This document shows, piece by piece, positions 3,095 through 23,076 of a stretch of 23,076 nucleotides of DNA. The translations under genes and the position numbers were made by a program. How positions within the stretch are numbered: the first letter of the stretch is position 1; every line of letters begins with the position of its first letter. The notes beneath the pieces were generated by a model. It was not told where the DNA came from. It ran no database searches and worked only from the letters and a program-made list of their open reading frames with translations. This stretch comes from a virus. The DNA lies in the IMG/VR virus record IMGVR_UViG_3300048838_001267, positions 1 to 23,076 of that record. One strand, 5' to 3'.

Positions 3095-3648
3095 CGGACG
3101 GCCAGCAACTCGCGGCCATTCGCGCCGACCTCGCGGCAATCGCTCCCGGCAAGTGGCTGCGGGCTGCGGACGCCGAAGGCGAGTTCGTCGAGGCGCATGG
3201 CGATATGGGCGAGATCCTGACGATCTGCCGCATCCATCCCGGCGCGAGCGATGCGGAGCGTCGTTTCCTCGCGGCTGCACCGGACATGGTGCGCTTCCTG
3301 CTGGCCTTGGTCGATCGCGCCGCCGACACGGTGCGGCGCCTGCGCGCTCCGGCGGACGGGCAGGACGGCTGCGGCATGGATTCCTCGCACGACGTGAAGG
3401 ACCGGCACGGCCTGAGCGGCAAGGATTATGCCGCGCAGGCCGCGATGCAATGCGCCTCGCCGGCCTTCCTGCGCTTCCTTGCGGAGAAGCACGGGCTGGA
3501 AAGCCCGCTGACCGAAGAGCGCGCGGCGCAAAGGGTCCGTTCGCTCTGCGGCGTGACCAGCCGGCGGGAGTTCAACGACGGCGACGCCGCCGCGGCGCGC
3601 TGGAAAAGCCTGATGGCTGAATTCGAGAACTGGAAGAGGGCGGGATGA
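3091..3648 (+). CDS. Hypothetical phage protein (Ea22-like N-terminus)
   Basis: A 185-aa protein from ATG 3091 in an ATGA overlap. The N-terminal half (LAAIRADLAAIAPGKW..., then a segment ending RFLAAAPDMVRFLLALVDRA) resembles the Ea22/ead-like early proteins of phages, where an AAPD motif is followed by a coiled helix. The C-terminal half contains AAMQCASPAFLRFLAEKHG and a repeated-helix region (ERAAQRVRSLCGVTSRREF, AAARWKSLMAEFENW), which looks like a separate small domain. Function unknown. It is coupled by overlap to the C5 methyltransferase. Confidence 0.6.
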   Translation: MTDGQQLAAIRADLAAIAPGKWLRAADAEGEFVEAHGDMGEILTICRIHPGASDAERRFLAAAPDMVRFLLALVDRAADTVRRLRAPADGQDGCGMDSSHDVKDRHGLSGKDYAAQAAMQCASPAFLRFLAEKHGLESPLTEERAAQRVRSLCGVTSRREFNDGDAAAARWKSLMAEFENWKRAG

Positions 3649-5789
3649 CGGCTCATGTCGGACCTCAGGACCTGTTCGGCGCTGTAGGCATTGCTGCTCC
3701 GCGCAAGCGATGGCGGTGCCTTAAGGTGCCCGGCTTCATGCCGGCGGCCAAGCTGCCACTGCCGGTCATACCGCCTTCGAAGTCTGGCATCCGGCGCATC
3801 GTCGCCGTGGACAGCTTTGCCGGTGCTGGCGGGGCGTCCGGCGGCATCAAGGAAGCCTTCCATCGCCTTGCCATGGCCGGTCTTCTGCCGTTCGGCCATC
3901 CCATGGGGCCGACCTATGCGATCAATCATGACGAGCCCGCGCTCATCATGCATGAGATCAACTATCCTGACACGATCCACCTTCGCCACAATGTCTGGCA
4001 GGTCCGGATGCAGGAAGTGCTGGGCGACGATCTGTTCGGCTTCCTCTGGCTGTCGCCGGACTGCCGCGACCATTCATCTGCGAAGGGCGGGCCGATCACC
4101 TCGCGCGCCGTGCGCGACCTTGCCTGGGTGCTGATCAAATGGCTGAAGGAACTGCCGGACTGGCAGCGCCCTTGGACGATCTGTCTGGAGAACGTGGGCG
4201 CCTTCGCCAAATGGAGCCCGCTGATCGAACGGCCGGACGGCAAGGGCTTCATGCGCGATCCGGACAGAATCGGGCACACTTTCCACCAGTTCGTGCACGC
4301 GCTTTCGCGTTTCGGTTATTCCGTCGGCTGGGGCGAGATGGTGGCCTGCGAGCATGGCGACCCGACCATCCGCAAGCGCCTGAAGCTTTGCGCGCGGCGC
4401 GACGGGCAGCGCATCGTGTTCCCGAGGCCGACGCATGGCGACCCGAAATCGGAGGCTGTGGTGTCCGGCCGCCTGAAGCCATGGCCGGTCGCGGCCGACA
4501 TCATCGACTTCTCGCTGCCGTGCCCTTCCGTGCTGATGACGAAGGAAGAGGCGCGGGCCTATACGAAGTCGACCGGCCAGAAGATCATCCGGCCGCTGGC
4601 GATGAAGACCGATGCGCGGCTCGCCAAGGGCGTGAAGCGCCATGTCATCGACGCAGCGGCCAAGGGCGAGGCCTTCATCGTCACATGCAACCATGCCGGC
4701 GACGGGTTTCGCGGGCAGGGAATGCGGGAGCCGCTGAAGACGGTTGCAGCTGCTCGCGACGCGCACGGCCTGGTCGTGCCGCATCTGATGACAATGCGAA
4801 ACTCCGCCAAACCGACCAGCGCCGCGAACGAACCCACGCATACGGCCACGGCAGCCGGCGCGCATCTTTTCGATGTAGAGACCACGATCGCGCCCTTCCT
4901 CAGCCGCGGGCAGCATGGCGGCGGCAATCGGCCTGCCAATGTTCCGCACACCACGATCGCCGCCTCCGATGGCGATCAGAATCAGGTCGTTGTGCCTTAT
5001 CTGGTGCCGCGCTACGGCGAGCGCGCCGGGCAGGAGCCGCGAAGCTTTGCGATCGACCGTCCGGCCCCGACGCCGGTGCCCGACGGCAATGGCGGCAGCC
5101 TGGCGGCGGTCTATCTTGCTCAGCACAATGGCGGCTCTCGCGGTCCGATCGGCCGGGGCGCGGCCGCGCCCCTTTCGACGGTCGAAACGGCGGGATCGCA
5201 ACAGCAGATCGTCGCGGCACACATGCTTTCGCTCAAGGGCAGCGATCGCCGCGATGGATCCTGCGAGGCACCGCATCCTGCCGTGTGCGCCGGCGGTCAG
5301 CATTCGGCGCTGATCACGCTGCCGCTGATGACCGCCTACTATTCGACGGGAGGCCAGAGCGCAGCGATCGGCGATCCGATGCTCGCGGTGCCGACGAAGG
5401 CGCGATTCGGACTGACGCATGTCGACGCCGCGCCGCAGCCGCTTACCGATGCGCAGCTTGCCAGCGCCCGTCGCGTAGCCGCCTTCCTGCGCAAGCATGG
5501 CTGCTGGGACGGCGGCGACATCGTCACCATCGAGATCGAGGGCATAACCTTCGTCATCGTCGATATCGGCATGCGCATGCTGACGCCGCGCGAGCTTGCG
5601 CGCGCAAACGGGTTTCCGGAGAGCTTCTTCCTCGATCCGATCTGGAAGGGAAAGCCGCTTTCGGAGACCCAGCAGCGGCACAAGATCGGCAACGCCGTCT
5701 GCCGTCTGCCGGCCGCCGCCTTCATCGAGGCGAATTATCGCCCGCCGCTCGAATGGGGCCAGAAAGCGTTTCTGGAGGCAGCGGAGTGA
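3645..5789 (+). CDS. C5-cytosine DNA methyltransferase with extended tandem-module region
   Basis: A 714-aa protein from ATG 3645 (ATGA overlap). Ordered C5-methyltransferase motifs: I FAGAGGASGG at 58-67; IV SPDCRDHS with the catalytic Cys at 140 (the usual PCQ is replaced by PDC); VI ENV at 182-184; VIII TIRKRL from about 241; then RMLTPRELARANGFPESFF (IX) and KIGNAV (X) near 675-683. Between VIII and IX, where the target-recognition region lies, residues about 344-594 consist of seven modules of 34-38 residues. Each begins with a hydrophobic strand such as VPHLM, IAPFL, VPYLV or AVYLA, and most carry a P-x-x-T-V/I/A-type strand. The protein is roughly twice the size of a minimal enzyme. 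No cognate nuclease is adjacent. Specificity cannot be read from sequence. Confidence 0.93.
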   Translation: MTAHVGPQDLFGAVGIAAPRKRWRCLKVPGFMPAAKLPLPVIPPSKSGIRRIVAVDSFAGAGGASGGIKEAFHRLAMAGLLPFGHPMGPTYAINHDEPALIMHEINYPDTIHLRHNVWQVRMQEVLGDDLFGFLWLSPDCRDHSSAKGGPITSRAVRDLAWVLIKWLKELPDWQRPWTICLENVGAFAKWSPLIERPDGKGFMRDPDRIGHTFHQFVHALSRFGYSVGWGEMVACEHGDPTIRKRLKLCARRDGQRIVFPRPTHGDPKSEAVVSGRLKPWPVAADIIDFSLPCPSVLMTKEEARAYTKSTGQKIIRPLAMKTDARLAKGVKRHVIDAAAKGEAFIVTCNHAGDGFRGQGMREPLKTVAAARDAHGLVVPHLMTMRNSAKPTSAANEPTHTATAAGAHLFDVETTIAPFLSRGQHGGGNRPANVPHTTIAASDGDQNQVVVPYLVPRYGERAGQEPRSFAIDRPAPTPVPDGNGGSLAAVYLAQHNGGSRGPIGRGAAAPLSTVETAGSQQQIVAAHMLSLKGSDRRDGSCEAPHPAVCAGGQHSALITLPLMTAYYSTGGQSAAIGDPMLAVPTKARFGLTHVDAAPQPLTDAQLASARRVAAFLRKHGCWDGGDIVTIEIEGITFVIVDIGMRMLTPRELARANGFPESFFLDPIWKGKPLSETQQRHKIGNAVCRLPAAAFIEANYRPPLEWGQKAFLEAAE

Positions 5790-6031: not shown

Positions 6032-7248
6032 GTCACGCTGCGACGAAGTGGGCTTTCGATCAGCCTGAGCTGCACCGGGACATGAAGCCGTCCGAATGGG
6101 CGGTGCTGATGGTGCTGGCGGATTGCCACAACCCGGTGAACGGCTGCTTCCCCAGCCAGGACTACATCTGCACGAAGACCAACCTCGGCGAACGCGCGGT
6201 GCGCGATCAGCTGTGTCGTCTGCGCGAGCGCGGACTGATCGATTGGGACAGCGCGCGGGAGAACGGCCGGCGCGGCTCGAACCGCTACATCCTCGGCTTT
6301 GAGGCGGGATTTCAACCGGCAAATTTTGCCGGTAGCTCAACCGGCGAAATCGAGCAGGCTCAACCGGCAGATTCCGACAGTTTCAATCGGCAAAATTTGC
6401 CGCCTAACCCTGTAAGGGAACCAGTAAAGGAACCTGAGAGAGGGTGTGAGCGCGAGGATCAGAAATCCGAAACGGATACCGTCGTGCCCGACGACGACAT
6501 GCCGGGACGGGCAGCATTCGACAAGCGCGTCATGCGGTTCATGTCCGGCCGCGGCTTCGTGGCGGGGCCTTGGCCGAACTGGGACAGCGGTGGCACGGCG
6601 ACGCCGGCGTGGGTGACTGCCCGCTTTGCCGAGCTGACATCGCAGCAGCGCATCGAGGCGGAGCGCTGGCGGGATGCATACCTGCTCGACATTGCTGGCC
6701 GAAAGCTTGAGCCAAAGCCTGTGGGGACGTTCATCCGCGACCGGGTGTGGGAAGGGCTCGACCCCGCCATTCTCGACCGGGCCGAGAGGGTGAGGCAGGG
6801 CCGGCTCTCGCCGGATGAGCGTTCGCGCCCTGATGGCTGGGCGAAGTGTCTCGGTCCCGTCGGCATGGCGCGCTACTTCGCGGACCTGCTGGCCGGAAGC
6901 GCGAAAGGCCTCGCGCTGGAAGGCTCGTTCGTTCCTGATCCGGTGTTGCGGGACAAGTGGCCAGAGCTTTGGCAGTTCCGGACCATCCTGCGGCAGAAGC
7001 AGGGCGTCGTGTTCGGGCCGCGCTGGCATTCGCTCAAGGGCGCGATGGAGCCAGTCCCGCAGGGTTCCGACATGCTGGCTCGCTGGAAGGCGACGTTTGC
7101 CGAGCGCGGCTGGCTTTGGCTCAGCGAGTTCGATCGGGTCGATGTGGTGTTCTGTCCGGCAGGCGGGCCGGAGGGACTGATGCAATTCGAGCAGGCGGTG
7201 CGAGGCAGGACGGATGATGATGGCGGAAGATCCGAAGCGGCTGAGTGA
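6028..7248 (+). CDS. HTH replication-initiator-like phage protein
   Basis: A 406-aa protein from ATG 6028 (ATGA overlap). Residues about 20-90 (KPSEWAVLMVLADCHNPVNGCFPSQDYI, ERAVRDQLCRLRERGLIDW, RGSNRYILGF) are an HTH_36-type winged helix, the DNA-binding module found in phage and plasmid replication proteins. Residues about 94-150 form a low-complexity linker encoded by DNA with four 14-bp repeats. The remaining ~250 residues (a segment with ARFAELTSQQRIEAERWRDA, GTFIRDRVWEGL, and a Trp-rich end) are of unknown fold. The layout DNA-binding domain, origin-bearing linker, C-terminal domain parallels lambda O. There is no adjacent helicase or helicase loader in the window. The 3' end overlaps the antiterminator gene by 35 bases. 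Confidence 0.75.
   Translation: MSHAATKWAFDQPELHRDMKPSEWAVLMVLADCHNPVNGCFPSQDYICTKTNLGERAVRDQLCRLRERGLIDWDSARENGRRGSNRYILGFEAGFQPANFAGSSTGEIEQAQPADSDSFNRQNLPPNPVREPVKEPERGCEREDQKSETDTVVPDDDMPGRAAFDKRVMRFMSGRGFVAGPWPNWDSGGTATPAWVTARFAELTSQQRIEAERWRDAYLLDIAGRKLEPKPVGTFIRDRVWEGLDPAILDRAERVRQGRLSPDERSRPDGWAKCLGPVGMARYFADLLAGSAKGLALEGSFVPDPVLRDKWPELWQFRTILRQKQGVVFGPRWHSLKGAMEPVPQGSDMLARWKATFAERGWLWLSEFDRVDVVFCPAGGPEGLMQFEQAVRGRTDDDGGRSEAAE
6316..6332. repeat. Palindrome 1 of the iteron array
   Basis: CCGGCAAATTTTGCCGG: perfect 8-bp arms around one central base. It combines the first iteron core with an inverted copy. Confidence 0.85.
6388..6402. repeat. Palindrome 2 of the iteron array
   Basis: CGGCAAAATTTGCCG: perfect 7-bp arms around one central base. 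Its centre is 71 bp from that of palindrome 1, with two single-orientation iterons between them. Confidence 0.85.
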
Positions 7249-7885
7249 GGCTACAGCCGTCGGGCCGACGGACAGGCAATCCGCGAGGCTCGATGCCGCC
7301 CGCGCCATCTCCCGCAGGCAGCAGGCGCTGCTTGCGGCAGCGGGAGAAATGGCTCCCGATCGTCGGTGGGCCATACTCCATGTCGACAATCGGCGCGACA
7401 ATGATGTGGATAACCAGCTCTCACGGGCGATGATCGAGCATTGGTTGCCGCTGAGAAAGGCGGATGAAACGCGCAGCGGGAAGCGCCGGGGCGCTCCGGG
7501 CCAGCCGGTTTGGATGCTTGCGTGGCCGGGCTATGTGTTCATCAAGATCACCGATACGGCGGCCGCGTGGCAGGGCATCATGACCATCAAACATGTGAAG
7601 TCCGTTCTCGGCGTGGGTGAGCGGCCGTTCTTCCTTGACGATGACAAGCTCATGAGATTCAAGGCGGAATTGGCGACGCTCAAGGTCTGCACCGGCCCGG
7701 AAACGATGTATGTCGAGGGAGAAGCCGTGACGGTGATCGATGGACCGTTTGCCTCGTTCCCCGGCAAGATCCTCGACATCGCGGATAGCTCGGTGCAGGA
7801 AGGCCGGGCGCGTGTCGAGGTGATGATCTTCGGGCGCGCTGTGCCTGTCGAACTCGATCTTGCGCAGATCGCGAAACGCGTATAG
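7214..7885 (+). CDS. NusG/RfaH-like transcription antitermination protein
   Basis: A 223-aa protein. Three ATG codons lie at 7214, 7217 and 7220; the exact one is uncertain. It overlaps the previous gene by 35 bases. After a ~50-residue N-terminal extension, residues 52-150 read as the NGN domain: RRWAILHVDNRRDN, then EHWLPLRK, WPGYVFIKI and IKHVKSVLGVG. Residues 167-220 read as the KOW domain: VEGEAVTVIDGPFASFPGKI, then VEVMIFGRAVPVELDLAQI. NusG paralogues bind the RNA polymerase clamp and make it resist pausing or termination. The gene ends the early block directly before the tRNA and late genes, so control of late transcription is a reasonable inference. No recruitment site is identifiable. 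Confidence 0.85.
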   Translation: MMMAEDPKRLSEATAVGPTDRQSARLDAARAISRRQQALLAAAGEMAPDRRWAILHVDNRRDNDVDNQLSRAMIEHWLPLRKADETRSGKRRGAPGQPVWMLAWPGYVFIKITDTAAAWQGIMTIKHVKSVLGVGERPFFLDDDKLMRFKAELATLKVCTGPETMYVEGEAVTVIDGPFASFPGKILDIADSSVQEGRARVEVMIFGRAVPVELDLAQIAKRV

Positions 7886-8014
7886 GCGAGTCGTCCTTAG
7901 GATCTCCGACAGATTCGCAGTCCAGGTGACCAGCGACATCGGACCCGGAACAGACGCCACGCAGACGTGGTCAGCCTGCTCGCAACGGTGAAGATTCTAC
8001 CAACATCCAATCAC
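7886..8014. other. Intergenic region before tRNA, probable control region
   Basis: 129 bases without a gene, the largest gap between the early and late blocks. It contains a small hairpin, CCACG (7957-7961) with CGTGG (7966-7970) and a CAGA loop, too short and without a T-tract to be a standard terminator. I see no convincing sigma-70 promoter. A late promoter, antiterminator loading site or cos would be expected near here, but none can be shown. Confidence 0.3.
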
Positions 8015-8091
8015 GTCGGGGTAGAGCAGCCCGGTAGCTCGTCAGCCTCATAAGCTGAAGGTCGGCGGTTCGAATCCGCTCCCCGCAACCA
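8015..8091 (+). tRNA. tRNA-Met (CAT anticodon), initiator-like hybrid
   Basis: 77 bases including an encoded CCA. D arm: GAGC (8024-8027) with GCTC (8037-8040). Anticodon stem: TCAGC (8042-8046) with GCTGA (8054-8058). Loop CTCATAA with anticodon CAT at 8049-8051. T arm GGCGG/CCGCT around TTCGAAT. The acceptor pairs CGGGG with CCCCG, while the first two positions (G1 with A72, T2 with C71) are unpaired. Initiator features are the unpaired 1-72 position, the A11-U24 D-stem pair and the 77-base length. The three G-C pairs of the initiator anticodon stem are replaced by A-U, G-C, C-G. A lysidine-modified tRNA-Ile is a less likely alternative. The near-complete cloverleaf argues for a working gene rather than an attachment remnant. 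Confidence 0.88.
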
Positions 8092-19511: not shown

Positions 19512-19964
19512 ATGGCAAAGAACGAAAACGTCGCCGTCATCGACTTCAGCGACGACGACCTGAACACGCAGGACACCGCCGACATGGTCGTCGTCGTCGG
19601 CGGCAAGCCTACCGACTGGATATGGACCTTCGCCGGCCCCGGCCACCCGCAGACGGTCGAGCACAACAACCGCGTCGCCCGCGACGCGCTGCACGAGTCG
19701 CGCCAGCATGAGCAGAGCCGGTTGAACGGCAAGAAGGTCAAGCTGCCCGACGAGAGCGTCGAGGAGGTCCGCGAGCGCAACGTGCAGTGGATCGTCGCCC
19801 GCCTGATAGGCTGGACGCCTGTCCGCATCAATGGCGAGGACTACGCGTTCTCGCAGGACAATGCACGGAAGCTCCTGCTCGATCCGCGCAAGCCGTTCCT
19901 GCAACAAGCCATCGACTTCCTGACGGCGGACGATTCTTTCACGAAGCGCTCGGCGAAGATCTGA
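19512..19964 (+). CDS. Tail assembly chaperone, short form (gpG-like)
   Basis: A 150-aa protein from ATG 19512, preceded by AAAAGGA. It has an acidic beginning (VIDFSDDDLNTQD), a central TDWIWTFAGPGHPQTVEHNNRVARDALHES, and a helical end (EEVRERNVQWIVARLIGWTPVRINGEDYAFSQDNARKLLLDPRKPFLQQAIDFLTADDSFTKRSAKI). The position just upstream of the tape measure gene and the size fit the gpG-type chaperone. These chaperones bind the tape measure protein before tube polymerisation. A second frame opens in its 3' end, see the next entry. Confidence 0.82.
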   Translation: MAKNENVAVIDFSDDDLNTQDTADMVVVVGGKPTDWIWTFAGPGHPQTVEHNNRVARDALHESRQHEQSRLNGKKVKLPDESVEEVRERNVQWIVARLIGWTPVRINGEDYAFSQDNARKLLLDPRKPFLQQAIDFLTADDSFTKRSAKI

Positions 19965-20317
19965 AGGCGCACGCCGAGCGCACATTCGCGCTCAACGAGA
20001 TCGATCCGGAGACGAAGGTCAGCTATCGCGAGACGCTGCAAGGCCTTCTGGATCGGGCGCGCGCCGACGAGCGGCGGGCGGAACTGGAGGCGGAGCTTGC
20101 CGTTCCGCCGCTGCCTCGCGAACTTGACTATCTGTGGCGGGCCTTCTGGCGGCTCGCCGGCCGCCGGCAGAGCTCCGGCTTCGGCCCGGCGCGCATCAGC
20201 TGGATGGAGATCGACGCATTTGTGCGGCTGTCAGGGATGCGGCTCGCGCCGTGGGAAATCGAGCTGATCGAGGAACTGGACGATCTGTATCTAATGGAGC
20301 GGAAGGGGACGGAGTAG
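19937..20317 (+). CDS. Tail chaperone extension (gpT-like), made by -1 frameshift
   Basis: This frame is -1 relative to the short chaperone and is open from 19712 to the stop at 20317. From 19964 to beyond 20100 it has no ATG, GTG or TTG. The only start codon in the overlap that I find is GTG 19787, from which the translation reads as non-native for 50 residues. From about 19934 it becomes natural (FFHEALGEDLKAHAERTFALNEIDP, then a block ending FGPARISWMEIDAFVRLSGMRLAPWEIELI). That last block is typical of tail assembly chaperones in alphaproteobacterial phages. A -1 shift near TTCTTTC at 19934-19940 would give a fusion of about 268 aa. The exact site is uncertain; coordinates start at the candidate. 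Confidence 0.7.
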   Translation, partial: FHEALGEDLKAHAERTFALNEIDPETKVSYRETLQGLLDRARADERRAELEAELAVPPLPRELDYLWRAFWRLAGRRQSSGFGPARISWMEIDAFVRLSGMRLAPWEIELIEELDDLYLMERKGTE

Positions 20318-20614
20318 CTATTTCTTCTTTCGCCAGACTAGGGGATCGGCGGCGTAGGCTTCGTAATAAGGGTTAAGTTCGCTTTCCTTCAAGATCAGCT
20401 TGGTTGTCCGGTCAAGAAGGCGGCGTTCATCGCAGGAATAAAGCATCATGACCGCGCTCTTGGCTTCCTCTTCGGAATAGGGTTTGGCCCGAAGCGTCAG
20501 ATCTGAAATCGCTCGCTCGCACCACGCAATCCATTGCGGCGTCGGAAACACCTGGGCTCCAGACGGACTGGCCGCCCCCAACATCATAACCAACAGCAGA
20601 AATTCTGTTCGCAT
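20318..20614 (-). CDS. Secreted small protein, candidate moron
   Basis: A 98-aa protein on the minus strand, the only gene so oriented. The start is ATG at 20614 (complement), 7 bases after GGAGG (20622-20626), which is better than the upstream alternative at 20665. Signal peptide: MRTE, hydrophobic FLLLVMMLGAA, cleavage expected after SGA at residue 20. The mature part (QVFPTPQWIAWCERAISDL..., SEEEAKSAVMMLYSCDERRLLDRTTKLILKE, ending WRKKK) has cysteines 32 and 61 that could pair. By eye its GC is clearly lower than in neighbouring genes. Its stop abuts the chaperone stop without a gap (TAG next to CTA). It lies between tail chaperone and tape measure, interrupting an otherwise fixed order. 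Function unknown; export suggests envelope modification or superinfection exclusion. Confidence 0.75.
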   Translation of the reverse strand: MRTEFLLLVMMLGAASPSGAQVFPTPQWIAWCERAISDLTLRAKPYSEEEAKSAVMMLYSCDERRLLDRTTKLILKESELNPYYEAYAADPLVWRKKK

Positions 20615-20636
20615 CGTCGCGCCTCCGAAGGGCGGC

Positions 20637-20665
20637 ACGATAGCGTGGCGTTCAAAAGCGGGCAA
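20637..20665 (-). promoter_or_regulatory. Candidate sigma-70 promoter of the moron
   Basis: On the minus strand: TTGCCC (complement of 20660-20665) as -35, 17-base spacer, TATCGT (complement of 20637-20642) as -10. Four of six matches each. The start of transcription would lie about 16 bases before the ATG. The promoter sits in the short gap before, and directly beside, the tape measure start. Confidence 0.45.
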
Positions 20666-20667
20666 TC

Positions 20668-23076
20668 ATGGCCTCTGAACTCAATCGCATCGTTACCGAG
20701 CTGATCATCGACGCCCGCGGCTCTGTCGCGGGCGCTGCTCAGCATGTGCGCGCGTCGAAGGAAGCTGAGCTTGCTTCGAACAAGCTTTCGGATGCGGAGG
20801 AAAAGGGCCGGATCGCGCGTGAGAAAAGCGCGGCGTCGTTTATGGGCGTCAGCAGCTCGATCGCGCGGGTGAGGTCCGAATACACCAACCTTCAGGCTCG
20901 GCTCGATCCAGTGTTCTCCGCGCAGATCAGGCAGCAGAAGGAGCTGGAGCGTGCGATCCTTGTTACGGATGCGGCTGTACGTCGGGGTGTGACGACCGAG
21001 CAGCAGGCAACGGCCACAATCTCGCGCCTGCGCGACCAGCAGATACGCGACATGCAGCGCGTGAAGGCTGCAGCGCAGGATCTGATACGCGTCCAGCGTG
21101 CCGCCAACGACAATTCCTCGAAATTCGCGACGGCGAATATCGCTGCACAGTTTCAGGACATCGGCGTCACGGCCGCCATGGGCATGTCGCCGCTCCAGAT
21201 CGCGCTTCAGCAAGGCACGCAGTTGCAGGCGGTGCTTGGCCCTATGGGCGCAGCTGGAGCCGTCAGGGCTCTCGGATCGGCATTCCTGTCGCTCCTCAAT
21301 CCGGTGAGCCTTGCGACGATGGCCCTCGTAGCGGCTGTAGCCGCCGCGATTCAGTATTTTACCGCCACCGATGAAGCGGAAGAATCCAACCAGAAGATTC
21401 GCGAGCACGCGCAGATCATCGACGGCGTCGTGCGGGCGTGGGGAGATGCCCTCCCAGCGCTCAAATCCTACAACACTGAACTTGAGCGACGAATCGCCCT
21501 CGACGAACTGTCGCGGGCCACCGAAGCCTATGTCGAGAAGCAGTACGCGCCTGTCCGGCAGGAGATGCCGGATGTGCGGAGCCAAATCGCTGCCGGAGCG
21601 GGTAAACTATACATTGAGGACATGGACGCGGCGATAAGACTTCGCGACGCGTTCCAAGCGCTTACGGATGCCGTTGCCGATAACAAGGCCACGGTTGAAC
21701 AGGTCGATGCGGTCATCAACGCGCTCAGTGTTTCGATGCTCGCAGCTTCCGAGCCAGTGCAAGCAGCAATCGATAAGCTCCGCGATTTTCGAGAGACGAT
21801 CGCCGATGCGAACGAGAAGGCCGATCCGGCGCGCATTCAGAAGTATTTCGCCGAACTCGGCTCGGCGATGCAAAAGTGGTGGGGCCAGTATTCCGGTCCC
21901 TTCATCGTCGCGTGGGAGAAGTTCAAGGGTTTCGTCAAGGAATTCGACGATCTCAATAAGCGCGAGGGCGCCGCTGTCCCGATCCCGACACGCCGCCCCA
22001 ACGACATCCAGCGCATGGATGAGGAGGCTGCTGCCGCAGAAAGGGCCGAGAAGGCGCAGGGCAAACTCACTGCCGCCTATGATCGAACCATCGAGAGCGC
22101 CCGCGAACGCAACGAGCAGCTTCAGGTAAGCCTGAAGTATCTCGGCGACTACAGCGTCGAGGCGCAGGCCGCCGTCTACGCTCAGCAGCTGATGAACCAG
22201 GCGCTTTCCGACGGGAAGTCGCTGACGCCGGAGCAGACGGCGGAGATCAACCGACTGGCGCAGGCGTATGCCGAACTCTCTCAGGCGATCGGTATCGCGC
22301 GCGCCGAGCAAGACCTCCAGTTCGAGCGCGACCAGCTTTCCCGCACGCCTGTCGAGCAGCGTGTCTATGCCGAACTGCGCAATCTCGGTCTCGACATCAA
22401 TTCGATCGAAGGCCAGCGCATCGCCGACAACATCCGGATCAACGAGGAGCTGGAGCGGCAGATCAGCTATGCGGAGGATGTCCGCGATACGCTGAAGGAA
22501 GGCGCGTCCAGCTTCTTGCAGGACCTGTTCACCGGCAAGGACTTGATGGAATCGATCGTCCGGCTCGGCGATCGCTTCGCGTCCATGAACTTCGACGCCT
22601 TCGTCGAGGGCGCCAGCAACTGGATGAGCGGCAAGGGCTTCACGCTGAGCTCGTCGTCGGCCCGCGCCAACATCCCGGCCGCGAGGGCAACGGGACAGGA
22701 GATCGCCAAGCCGGTCGTCTCGGCGATCAAGGACATCGCCGAAGGGCCGGCATGGGAACGGCAGGGGCGCGGTGGAATTCCCGGCATGCCCGCCGCGATC
22801 CAGACGGGCAAGGCCATGGCGCAGGGCGTGGTGCCGGCCATTCAGGAGCCGTTGAACCGACAGGTCGATGTTATCGCCGGCGCGATCAGGAAGATCGAGA
22901 GCGGGAACAACTACGGCGCTGTCGGCATGCAGACGAAGTATGGAAAGCCGCTCGGGGCCTACCAGATACTCGAAAGCAACCTGCCGCAGTGGTCTCAGCA
23001 AGCGCTTGGCCGAGTTGTGTCGGCATCGGAGTTTCTCGGCGACCGGCTCACTCAGGATCAGGTTGCCTATTATCAG
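20668..23076 (+). CDS. Tape measure protein with lytic-transglycosylase-like domain (3'-partial)
   Basis: Open from ATG 20668 to the right edge (803 codons, no stop). Residues 1-150 are coiled coil (HVRASKEAELASNKLSDAEEKGRI...). From 161, QFQDIGVTAAMGMSPLQIALQQGTQL is the signature of the prophage tail length tape measure family. Residues about 199-232 are hydrophobic (SAFLSLLNPVSLATMALVAAVAAAI), as usual for membrane-interacting tape measure segments. From about 740, IRKIESGNNYGAVG with the Glu at 744, then GKPLGAYQILESNLPQWSQQALGR, resembles the lysozyme/transglycosylase-like fold that opens the peptidoglycan during entry. It sets tail length and is injected early. Confidence 0.88.
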   Translation, partial: MASELNRIVTELIIDARGSVAGAAQHVRASKEAELASNKLSDAEEKGRIAREKSAASFMGVSSSIARVRSEYTNLQARLDPVFSAQIRQQKELERAILVTDAAVRRGVTTEQQATATISRLRDQQIRDMQRVKAAAQDLIRVQRAANDNSSKFATANIAAQFQDIGVTAAMGMSPLQIALQQGTQLQAVLGPMGAAGAVRALGSAFLSLLNPVSLATMALVAAVAAAIQYFTATDEAEESNQKIREHAQIIDGVVRAWGDALPALKSYNTELERRIALDELSRATEAYVEKQYAPVRQEMPDVRSQIAAGAGKLYIEDMDAAIRLRDAFQALTDAVADNKATVEQVDAVINALSVSMLAASEPVQAAIDKLRDFRETIADANEKADPARIQKYFAELGSAMQKWWGQYSGPFIVAWEKFKGFVKEFDDLNKREGAAVPIPTRRPNDIQRMDEEAAAAERAEKAQGKLTAAYDRTIESARERNEQLQVSLKYLGDYSVEAQAAVYAQQLMNQALSDGKSLTPEQTAEINRLAQAYAELSQAIGIARAEQDLQFERDQLSRTPVEQRVYAELRNLGLDINSIEGQRIADNIRINEELERQISYAEDVRDTLKEGASSFLQDLFTGKDLMESIVRLGDRFASMNFDAFVEGASNWMSGKGFTLSSSSARANIPAARATGQEIAKPVVSAIKDIAEGPAWERQGRGGIPGMPAAIQTGKAMAQGVVPAIQEPLNRQVDVIAGAIRKIESGNNYGAVGMQTKYGKPLGAYQILESNLPQWSQQALGRVVSASEFLGDRLTQDQVAYYQ

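Follow-up and report, generated by a model that had tools for sequence, protein, structure and literature searches.

Why does a tail operon read on one strand carry, between its tail assembly chaperone and tape measure genes, a small gene on the other strand, and what might its product do? The question is raised by the IMG/VR virus record IMGVR_UViG_3300048838_001267, whose entire 23,076 bp, a 23-kb fragment, were analyzed (hereafter, the window). At this junction, an open reading frame (ORF), P0001, runs from 20614 to 20318 on the minus strand, with an ATG start and 98 codons followed by a stop. A first-pass annotation had described it as a secreted reverse moron of a family it did not recognize. 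Our analysis shows that the junction is a recurrent cargo slot in related phages and indicates that P0001 is very probably an accessory envelope moron.

P0001 is almost certainly a real gene

ORF length and codon use alone are poor proof of a gene in this case, because GC-rich (guanine plus cytosine) DNA yields many long antisense ORFs. The codon score of P0001 (+1.9) is the top of the six frames, yet many antisense ORFs equal it. To find homologs, phmmer was run against 5157 ORFs taken from 80 loci whose tape measure genes are related. Results showed only five significant matches (L033, L038, L039, L043, and L069; E 3.5e-08 to 3.3e-07), all of them minus-strand ORFs in the same chaperone/tape measure slot of other phage records. 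P0001 and these homologs share ~29% identity and 25 invariant columns, among them both cysteines of the protein (C32 and C61), and the C-terminal block PY/L-E-Y-A-N/D-P-VWR is kept in all. When L039 was compared with the other homologs, the ratio of nonsynonymous to synonymous substitution rates (dN/dS) was 0.09–0.11, against 1.3–2.5 in four of the five other frames and 0.19 in the fifth, an antisense frame. Therefore, the P0001 reading frame, whose lack of conservation in relatives would have spoken against the first-pass annotation, is conserved in five homologs and under purifying selection in these relatives.

Same-locus protein homology combined with purifying selection in relatives makes P0001 almost certainly a real gene. 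The idea of a chance open frame within a non-coding gap, which has in its favor the weak codon score and the abundance of long antisense ORFs in high-GC DNA, was rejected and retains hardly any probability considering the homologous proteins encoded at this locus in five records, the shared invariant columns, the low dN/dS compared with the control frames, and a Shine-Dalgarno sequence and a signal peptide that are both in place.

What the first-pass annotation had remarked about the ORF itself was borne out. P0001 is the sole minus-strand gene called in the window, and its GC content (53.9%, versus 63.5% for the window) is as low in just 0.1% of 297-nt segments. The Shine-Dalgarno sequence, GGAGG, is strong. 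The stop codon (20318-20320) abuts that of the plus-strand chaperone gene (20315-20317), so that the two convergent genes touch at 20317/20318. The N-terminus, MRTEF / LLLVMMLGAA / SPSGA-QVFP, reads by inspection as a plausible signal peptide, with Ser at -3 and Ala at -1. No lipobox was found in P0001, whose first 31 residues are without Cys, and two cysteines, invariant in the homologs, are located in the mature part.

An AlphaFold2 (AF2) model built on the five-sequence alignment predicts an all-helical protein (helices 26-41, 48-63, 69-77, and 81-89) with a mean predicted local distance difference test score (pLDDT) of 79, which exceeds 90 across most of the mature part and falls below 50 for residues 1-19, as expected for a signal peptide. 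C32 and C61 sit in the first two predicted helices; in the periplasm, a disulfide would probably join them.

As to its family, P0001 found no match in Pfam, NCBIfam, PADLOC, PDB (sequence or fold), or the viral fold libraries; a fold search with the AF2 model returned nothing at E <= 0.001. The best PHROG match, phrog_23484 (E 0.19), was rejected since the homologs of P0001 do not match it. P0001 alone as query gave no matches in viral contig, phage, and plasmid collections, and neither did the family alignment against a genome collection. A DNA pattern scan for the C-terminal motif across 2.9 million viral contigs found just the five known records; thus, the close family is small. As judged from these searches, the family is a new one, in agreement with the failure of the first-pass annotation to recognize it. 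We also considered a wider superfamily that would unite it with further slot proteins having two Cys (C-x15-30-C and then a Gly-Tyr/Leu-Ile-Thr-like stretch, for example, in L045, L101, and L109). The grouping is appealing on inspection, but it was not supported by profile comparison.

The chaperone/tape measure junction is a cargo slot

Morons are usually found singly. We looked at the same junction in loci collected by tape measure, tail tube, or chaperone similarity, which are phylogenetically non-independent, using gene calls from a home-made caller and removing loci with tape measure N-termini >=90% identical for the dereplicated counts. The automatic caller placed minus-strand genes in the slot of 59 of 82 loci and, after dereplication, of 27 of 46; hand inspection added at least 5 more occupied slots, giving 32/46. 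Among the 318 genes called upstream of the slot, just 3 have minus-strand orientation (Fisher p ~3e-25 versus the 27/46 slots). The first-pass annotation was therefore wrong in taking chaperone/tape measure adjacency to be otherwise invariant. The comparison of related phages that it proposed found both occupied and empty slots, and the junction is a recurrent cargo slot, a hot spot in related phages.

Occupancy varies among close relatives. The slot is empty in the relatives nearest by tape measure (L002-L006) and, among phages of the same tail lineage as the window (tail tube identity 46-73%), in L111, L113, L115, L121, L122, and Bradyrhizobium phage ppBdUSDA122-1. In the same lineage, it is filled by a membrane-anchored protein in L109, by lipoproteins in L110, L112, L117, and L118, by a two-helix membrane protein in L114, and by a secreted protein in L116. 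Annotated Rhizobium phages also carry minus-strand hypothetical genes there, namely RHph_Y3_1 (EVB59_043), RHph_N28_2 (EVB88_027), and RHph_TM3_3_3 (EVB37_026), and in Paracoccus phage Pkon1 the minus-strand slot gene p57 encodes a peptidoglycan-binding domain protein. These four genes share slot and strand with P0001 and are small, with N-terminal export or anchor segments where read, but they belong to other families, and all bar p57 are annotated as hypothetical. Empty slots were found in phi3LM21, Vibrio phage Vaitephage, Nostoc phage Nsp-JY10, and Rhodobacter phage RC1, while Rhizobium phage RHph_X2_24 has a plus-strand gene annotated as a homing endonuclease at the same junction (L103:1497-2123).

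The cargo is diverse and biased toward export, as called from the hydropathy of N-termini. Excluding the called slot gene of L008, which is probably spurious, it comprises 25 families, 20 of which begin with an export-like segment (19 if YbjQ is set aside, since that call hinges on an upstream extension), compared with 11 of 110 families among the small plus-strand genes of the same loci. Some slot genes were added by eye, in part on account of their export signals, so the fair comparison uses the automatic set, in which 13 of 19 slot families are export-like versus 11/110 controls (p = 1.6e-7). Among the non-exported cargo are a HIRAN-like protein and a YbjQ protein (PF01906, 9.9e-23) whose N-terminal part has a CxxC...CxxC stretch.

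Slot contents are also exchanged between near-identical backbones, with sharp swap edges. They differ in 80 of 156 locus pairs with tape measure N-termini >=90% identical (pairs that are non-independent), and such differing pairs reach 99.75% identity over the tape measure N-terminus. For example, the DNA of L049 and L051 is 90-100% identical from the tape measure start through the leader's first 40 nt, drops to ~15-50% over most of the cargo, and returns to 85-100% toward the chaperone.

YbjQ with the CxxC...CxxC stretch is the commonest slot cargo (L048:3027-3479, L051:3027-3473, and ~20 more), and Rhodobacter phages RC1/RS1 carry a YbjQ protein elsewhere in the genome. The HIRAN-like protein is encoded by a second reverse gene in the slot (L050:2251-2961, L066:2250-2960), with a weak Pfam match (0.00013) and a weak match to the PADLOC candidate PDC-M03B. 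In addition, many of the relatives have another minus-strand gene (~165 amino acids, strong codon score) immediately after the tape measure gene, as in L033:6182-6676, L039:6192-6686, L043:5966-6460, L069:6553-7047, and others, possibly marking a second site for reverse cargo.

Expression signals and lysogeny

In many of the occupied relatives, a sigma70-like promoter sequence is found on the minus strand at a fixed place, straddling the start codon of the tape measure gene. Its -35 element (TTGTCA or TTGCCA) lies within tape measure codons 2-4 and is separated by a spacer of 18 or 17 nt from a -10 element (TAGAAT, TAAAAT, or TATAAG) that overlaps the tape measure ribosome-binding site. A promoter score of >=9/12 was reached in 14 of 32 occupied slots, in none of the 14 empty ones, and in 0.45% of 19,680 control windows. 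A simple scan saw a GC hairpin between the tape measure and the reverse gene in just 12 of the 27 occupied slots, and none in the window, so the hairpin was rejected as a feature of every slot.

Considering only records of at least 30 kb, an integrase above the Pfam cut-off was detected in 26 of 31 occupied records versus 12 of 21 slot-empty ones (Fisher two-sided p = 0.055). This distribution agrees with a lysogenic role without proving one. Together with the absence of the gene from several close tail relatives, the presence of an integrase in most occupied relatives fits the first-pass description of P0001 as a secreted reverse moron in a late operon.

What P0001 may do at the cell envelope

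We consider it very probable that P0001 is an accessory envelope moron, and there is about an even chance that its role is superinfection exclusion at genome entry, a role proposed by analogy with known systems. In a lysogen, the late operon would be silent and P0001 would be transcribed from its own promoter. The product would pass the inner membrane through Sec, lose its signal peptide, and adopt a small helical fold in the periplasm, its two cysteines probably joined. There, it would most likely keep superinfecting siphophages from delivering their genomes. It might bind the tip or tape measure protein of the arriving tail, or it might inactivate a host factor, in the inner membrane or the periplasm, used by that tail. 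During lytic growth, strong plus-strand late transcription would override P0001.

The closest precedent by location is HK97 gp15, a superinfection exclusion moron (Cumby et al. 2012, summarized in PMC10883804) that is a plus-strand gene for a predicted inner-membrane protein of 62 amino acids. Like gp15, P0001 is an accessory gene in the slot between a frameshift-type chaperone and the tape measure gene, and its product has an N-terminal hydrophobic segment. Unlike gp15, it is on the minus strand, and its product combines a signal peptide of cleavable type with a helical domain holding two Cys; moreover, the two proteins gave no alignment at E <= 100. P0001 can thus be said to work like a gp15-type moron by location and envelope targeting, but it cannot be said to be one. 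A second precedent is Ltp of Streptococcus phage TP-J34, which targets the tape measure protein from the outer side of the cytoplasmic membrane and blocks DNA injection (PMC3952083). Like Ltp and the related Sie lipoproteins, P0001 would be a small prophage protein located outside the cytoplasmic membrane; an injection block through the tape measure is known for Ltp and would be the analogous action of P0001. Ltp differs in being a lipoprotein found in Gram-positive hosts, with a gene that belongs to the lysogeny module, whereas P0001 is without lipobox and without a PDB fold match.

Several points weigh against the exclusion role and the expression scheme proposed for it. The promoter candidate ahead of P0001 is weak, its score of 8 being reached by 3.3% of the 70-nt segments of the window (19% under a laxer rule), and a scan of the window for consensus promoters and terminators was negative; in particular, no terminator was found in 20200-20900. 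The 23-kb window, a fragment, contains no integrase. Exclusion proteins showed neither sequence nor fold similarity to P0001, and, within the comparisons made, none of gp15, Ltp, and Tab is a homolog of it. Finally, the YbjQ and HIRAN cargo is not obviously envelope-targeted, and because of such cargo the slot would serve lysogenic functions generally, so that P0001 need not exclude.

This last point leads to the best-surviving alternative, namely that P0001 is an envelope moron with another benefit, altering the lysogen surface or periplasm (masking of the adsorption receptor, or fitness under stress or in root association) while DNA injection is unaffected. We regard this as rather unlikely, though quite conceivable. 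The export signal and the two conserved Cys of P0001 suit it, and the heterogeneous cargo, which includes lipoproteins, two-transmembrane proteins, the Pkon1 peptidoglycan-binding protein, and YbjQ, is what general lysogenic conversion predicts. Against it, the site beside the tape measure gene and the gp15 precedent favor exclusion, by analogy only.

A lytic-phase accessory protein, acting in lysis timing or virion assembly and placed on the minus strand by happenstance, is improbable. P0001 is indeed located among late genes, and small Sec-exported proteins occur in lysis cassettes too. However, a strand opposite to the late operon means no co-transcription with it, the gene is missing from close relatives whose tail operons are otherwise intact, and near-identical phages carry unrelated proteins instead.

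Interference with tail assembly, in which P0001 would act like Tab or Tai on the tape measure or tail proteins of competitors inside the cell, appears slightly less probable still. Phage JBD26 encodes the tail assembly blocker Tab, a moron read from the minus strand under a promoter of its own; Tab targets the tape measure protein (PMC10884400). P0001 resembles it as a small orphan protein encoded by a minus-strand moron amid plus-strand late genes and adjoining the tape measure gene, with a promoter-like sequence of its own seen here in relatives. Against this reading, the cleavable-type signal peptide implies that P0001 should be outside the cytoplasm, where tails assemble, and the majority of slot families are exported, while Tab is not described as exported. 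Tab also sits between terminase genes and requires an anti-Tab, of which no counterpart was seen here, and P0001 had no PADLOC match.

Returning to exclusion, a broader proposal can be made tentatively, and we hold it at clearly less than even confidence. Alphaproteobacterial siphophages may keep a dedicated exchange site for reverse cargo, in which a lysogen promoter is built into the first codons and the ribosome-binding site of the tape measure gene and ~25 swappable families of small, mostly exported proteins alternate. Placement beside the tape measure gene would then reflect an arms race in which exclusion and tape measure proteins travel and recombine together, and P0001 would represent a new class of disulfide-closed helical periplasmic exclusion factor. 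In any case, one tail-operon junction in rhizobial-type siphophages repeatedly hosts cargo, with a bias in gene orientation and toward export. It offers a simple rule (minus strand, just ahead of the tape measure gene) for harvesting candidate superinfection exclusion and lysogenic conversion proteins from phages of soil and symbiotic bacteria. The slot also bears on whether exclusion proteins move together with their tape measure targets, and on how an essential late gene can hold a promoter within its start and suffer no harm.

Flanking tail genes and other features of the window

The features of the P0001 locus are collected in Table 1. The second chaperone ORF is 66-68% identical to its counterparts in L109/L117. 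It lies in the -1 frame, and no XXXYYYZ slippery heptamer was found in the overlap of the two chaperone ORFs (searched over 19712-19964).

Table 1. Coordinates of P0001, its signals, and the flanking tail genes in the window.
Feature	Coordinates	Strand	Basis
P0001, moron gene; 98-amino-acid, predicted Sec-exported, all-helical, two-cysteine protein	20318..20614	minus	
Predicted signal peptide of P0001, residues 1-20/21, SGA-Q cleavage site	20552..20614	minus	Sequence and AF2 pLDDT
Shine-Dalgarno GGAGG, ATG 8 nt further on	20623..20627	minus	Sequence
Weak sigma70-like promoter candidate TTGCCC-N17-TATCGT, 8/12, adjoining the tape measure start codon	20637..20665	minus	Sequence scan
Tail assembly chaperone, first ORF, upstream flank of the slot	19512..19964	+	PHROG tail assembly chaperone 8.2e-05
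Tail assembly chaperone, second ORF, -1 frame, Phage_TAC_18	19964..20317	+	Pfam 1.2e-15
Tail tape measure protein, other flank of the slot, continuing past the contig end	20668..23076	+	TMP_2 1.8e-16; PHROG 3.6e-71

Elsewhere on the plus strand of the window, upstream of the terminase genes, 7214-7885 encodes a NusG/RfaH-like protein (PF02357 5.2e-12, with a weak KOW match, 0.001), possibly a phage-borne antiterminator of the late operon. A tRNA-Met (CAT) gene lies at 8014-8091 between the early and late regions, and the minus-strand ORF overlying it is spurious. Two DNA methyltransferases are encoded at 171-1109 and 3645-5789, the former of N4/N6 type (9.8e-20) and the latter a 714-residue C5-cytosine methylase-like protein (4.8e-12).
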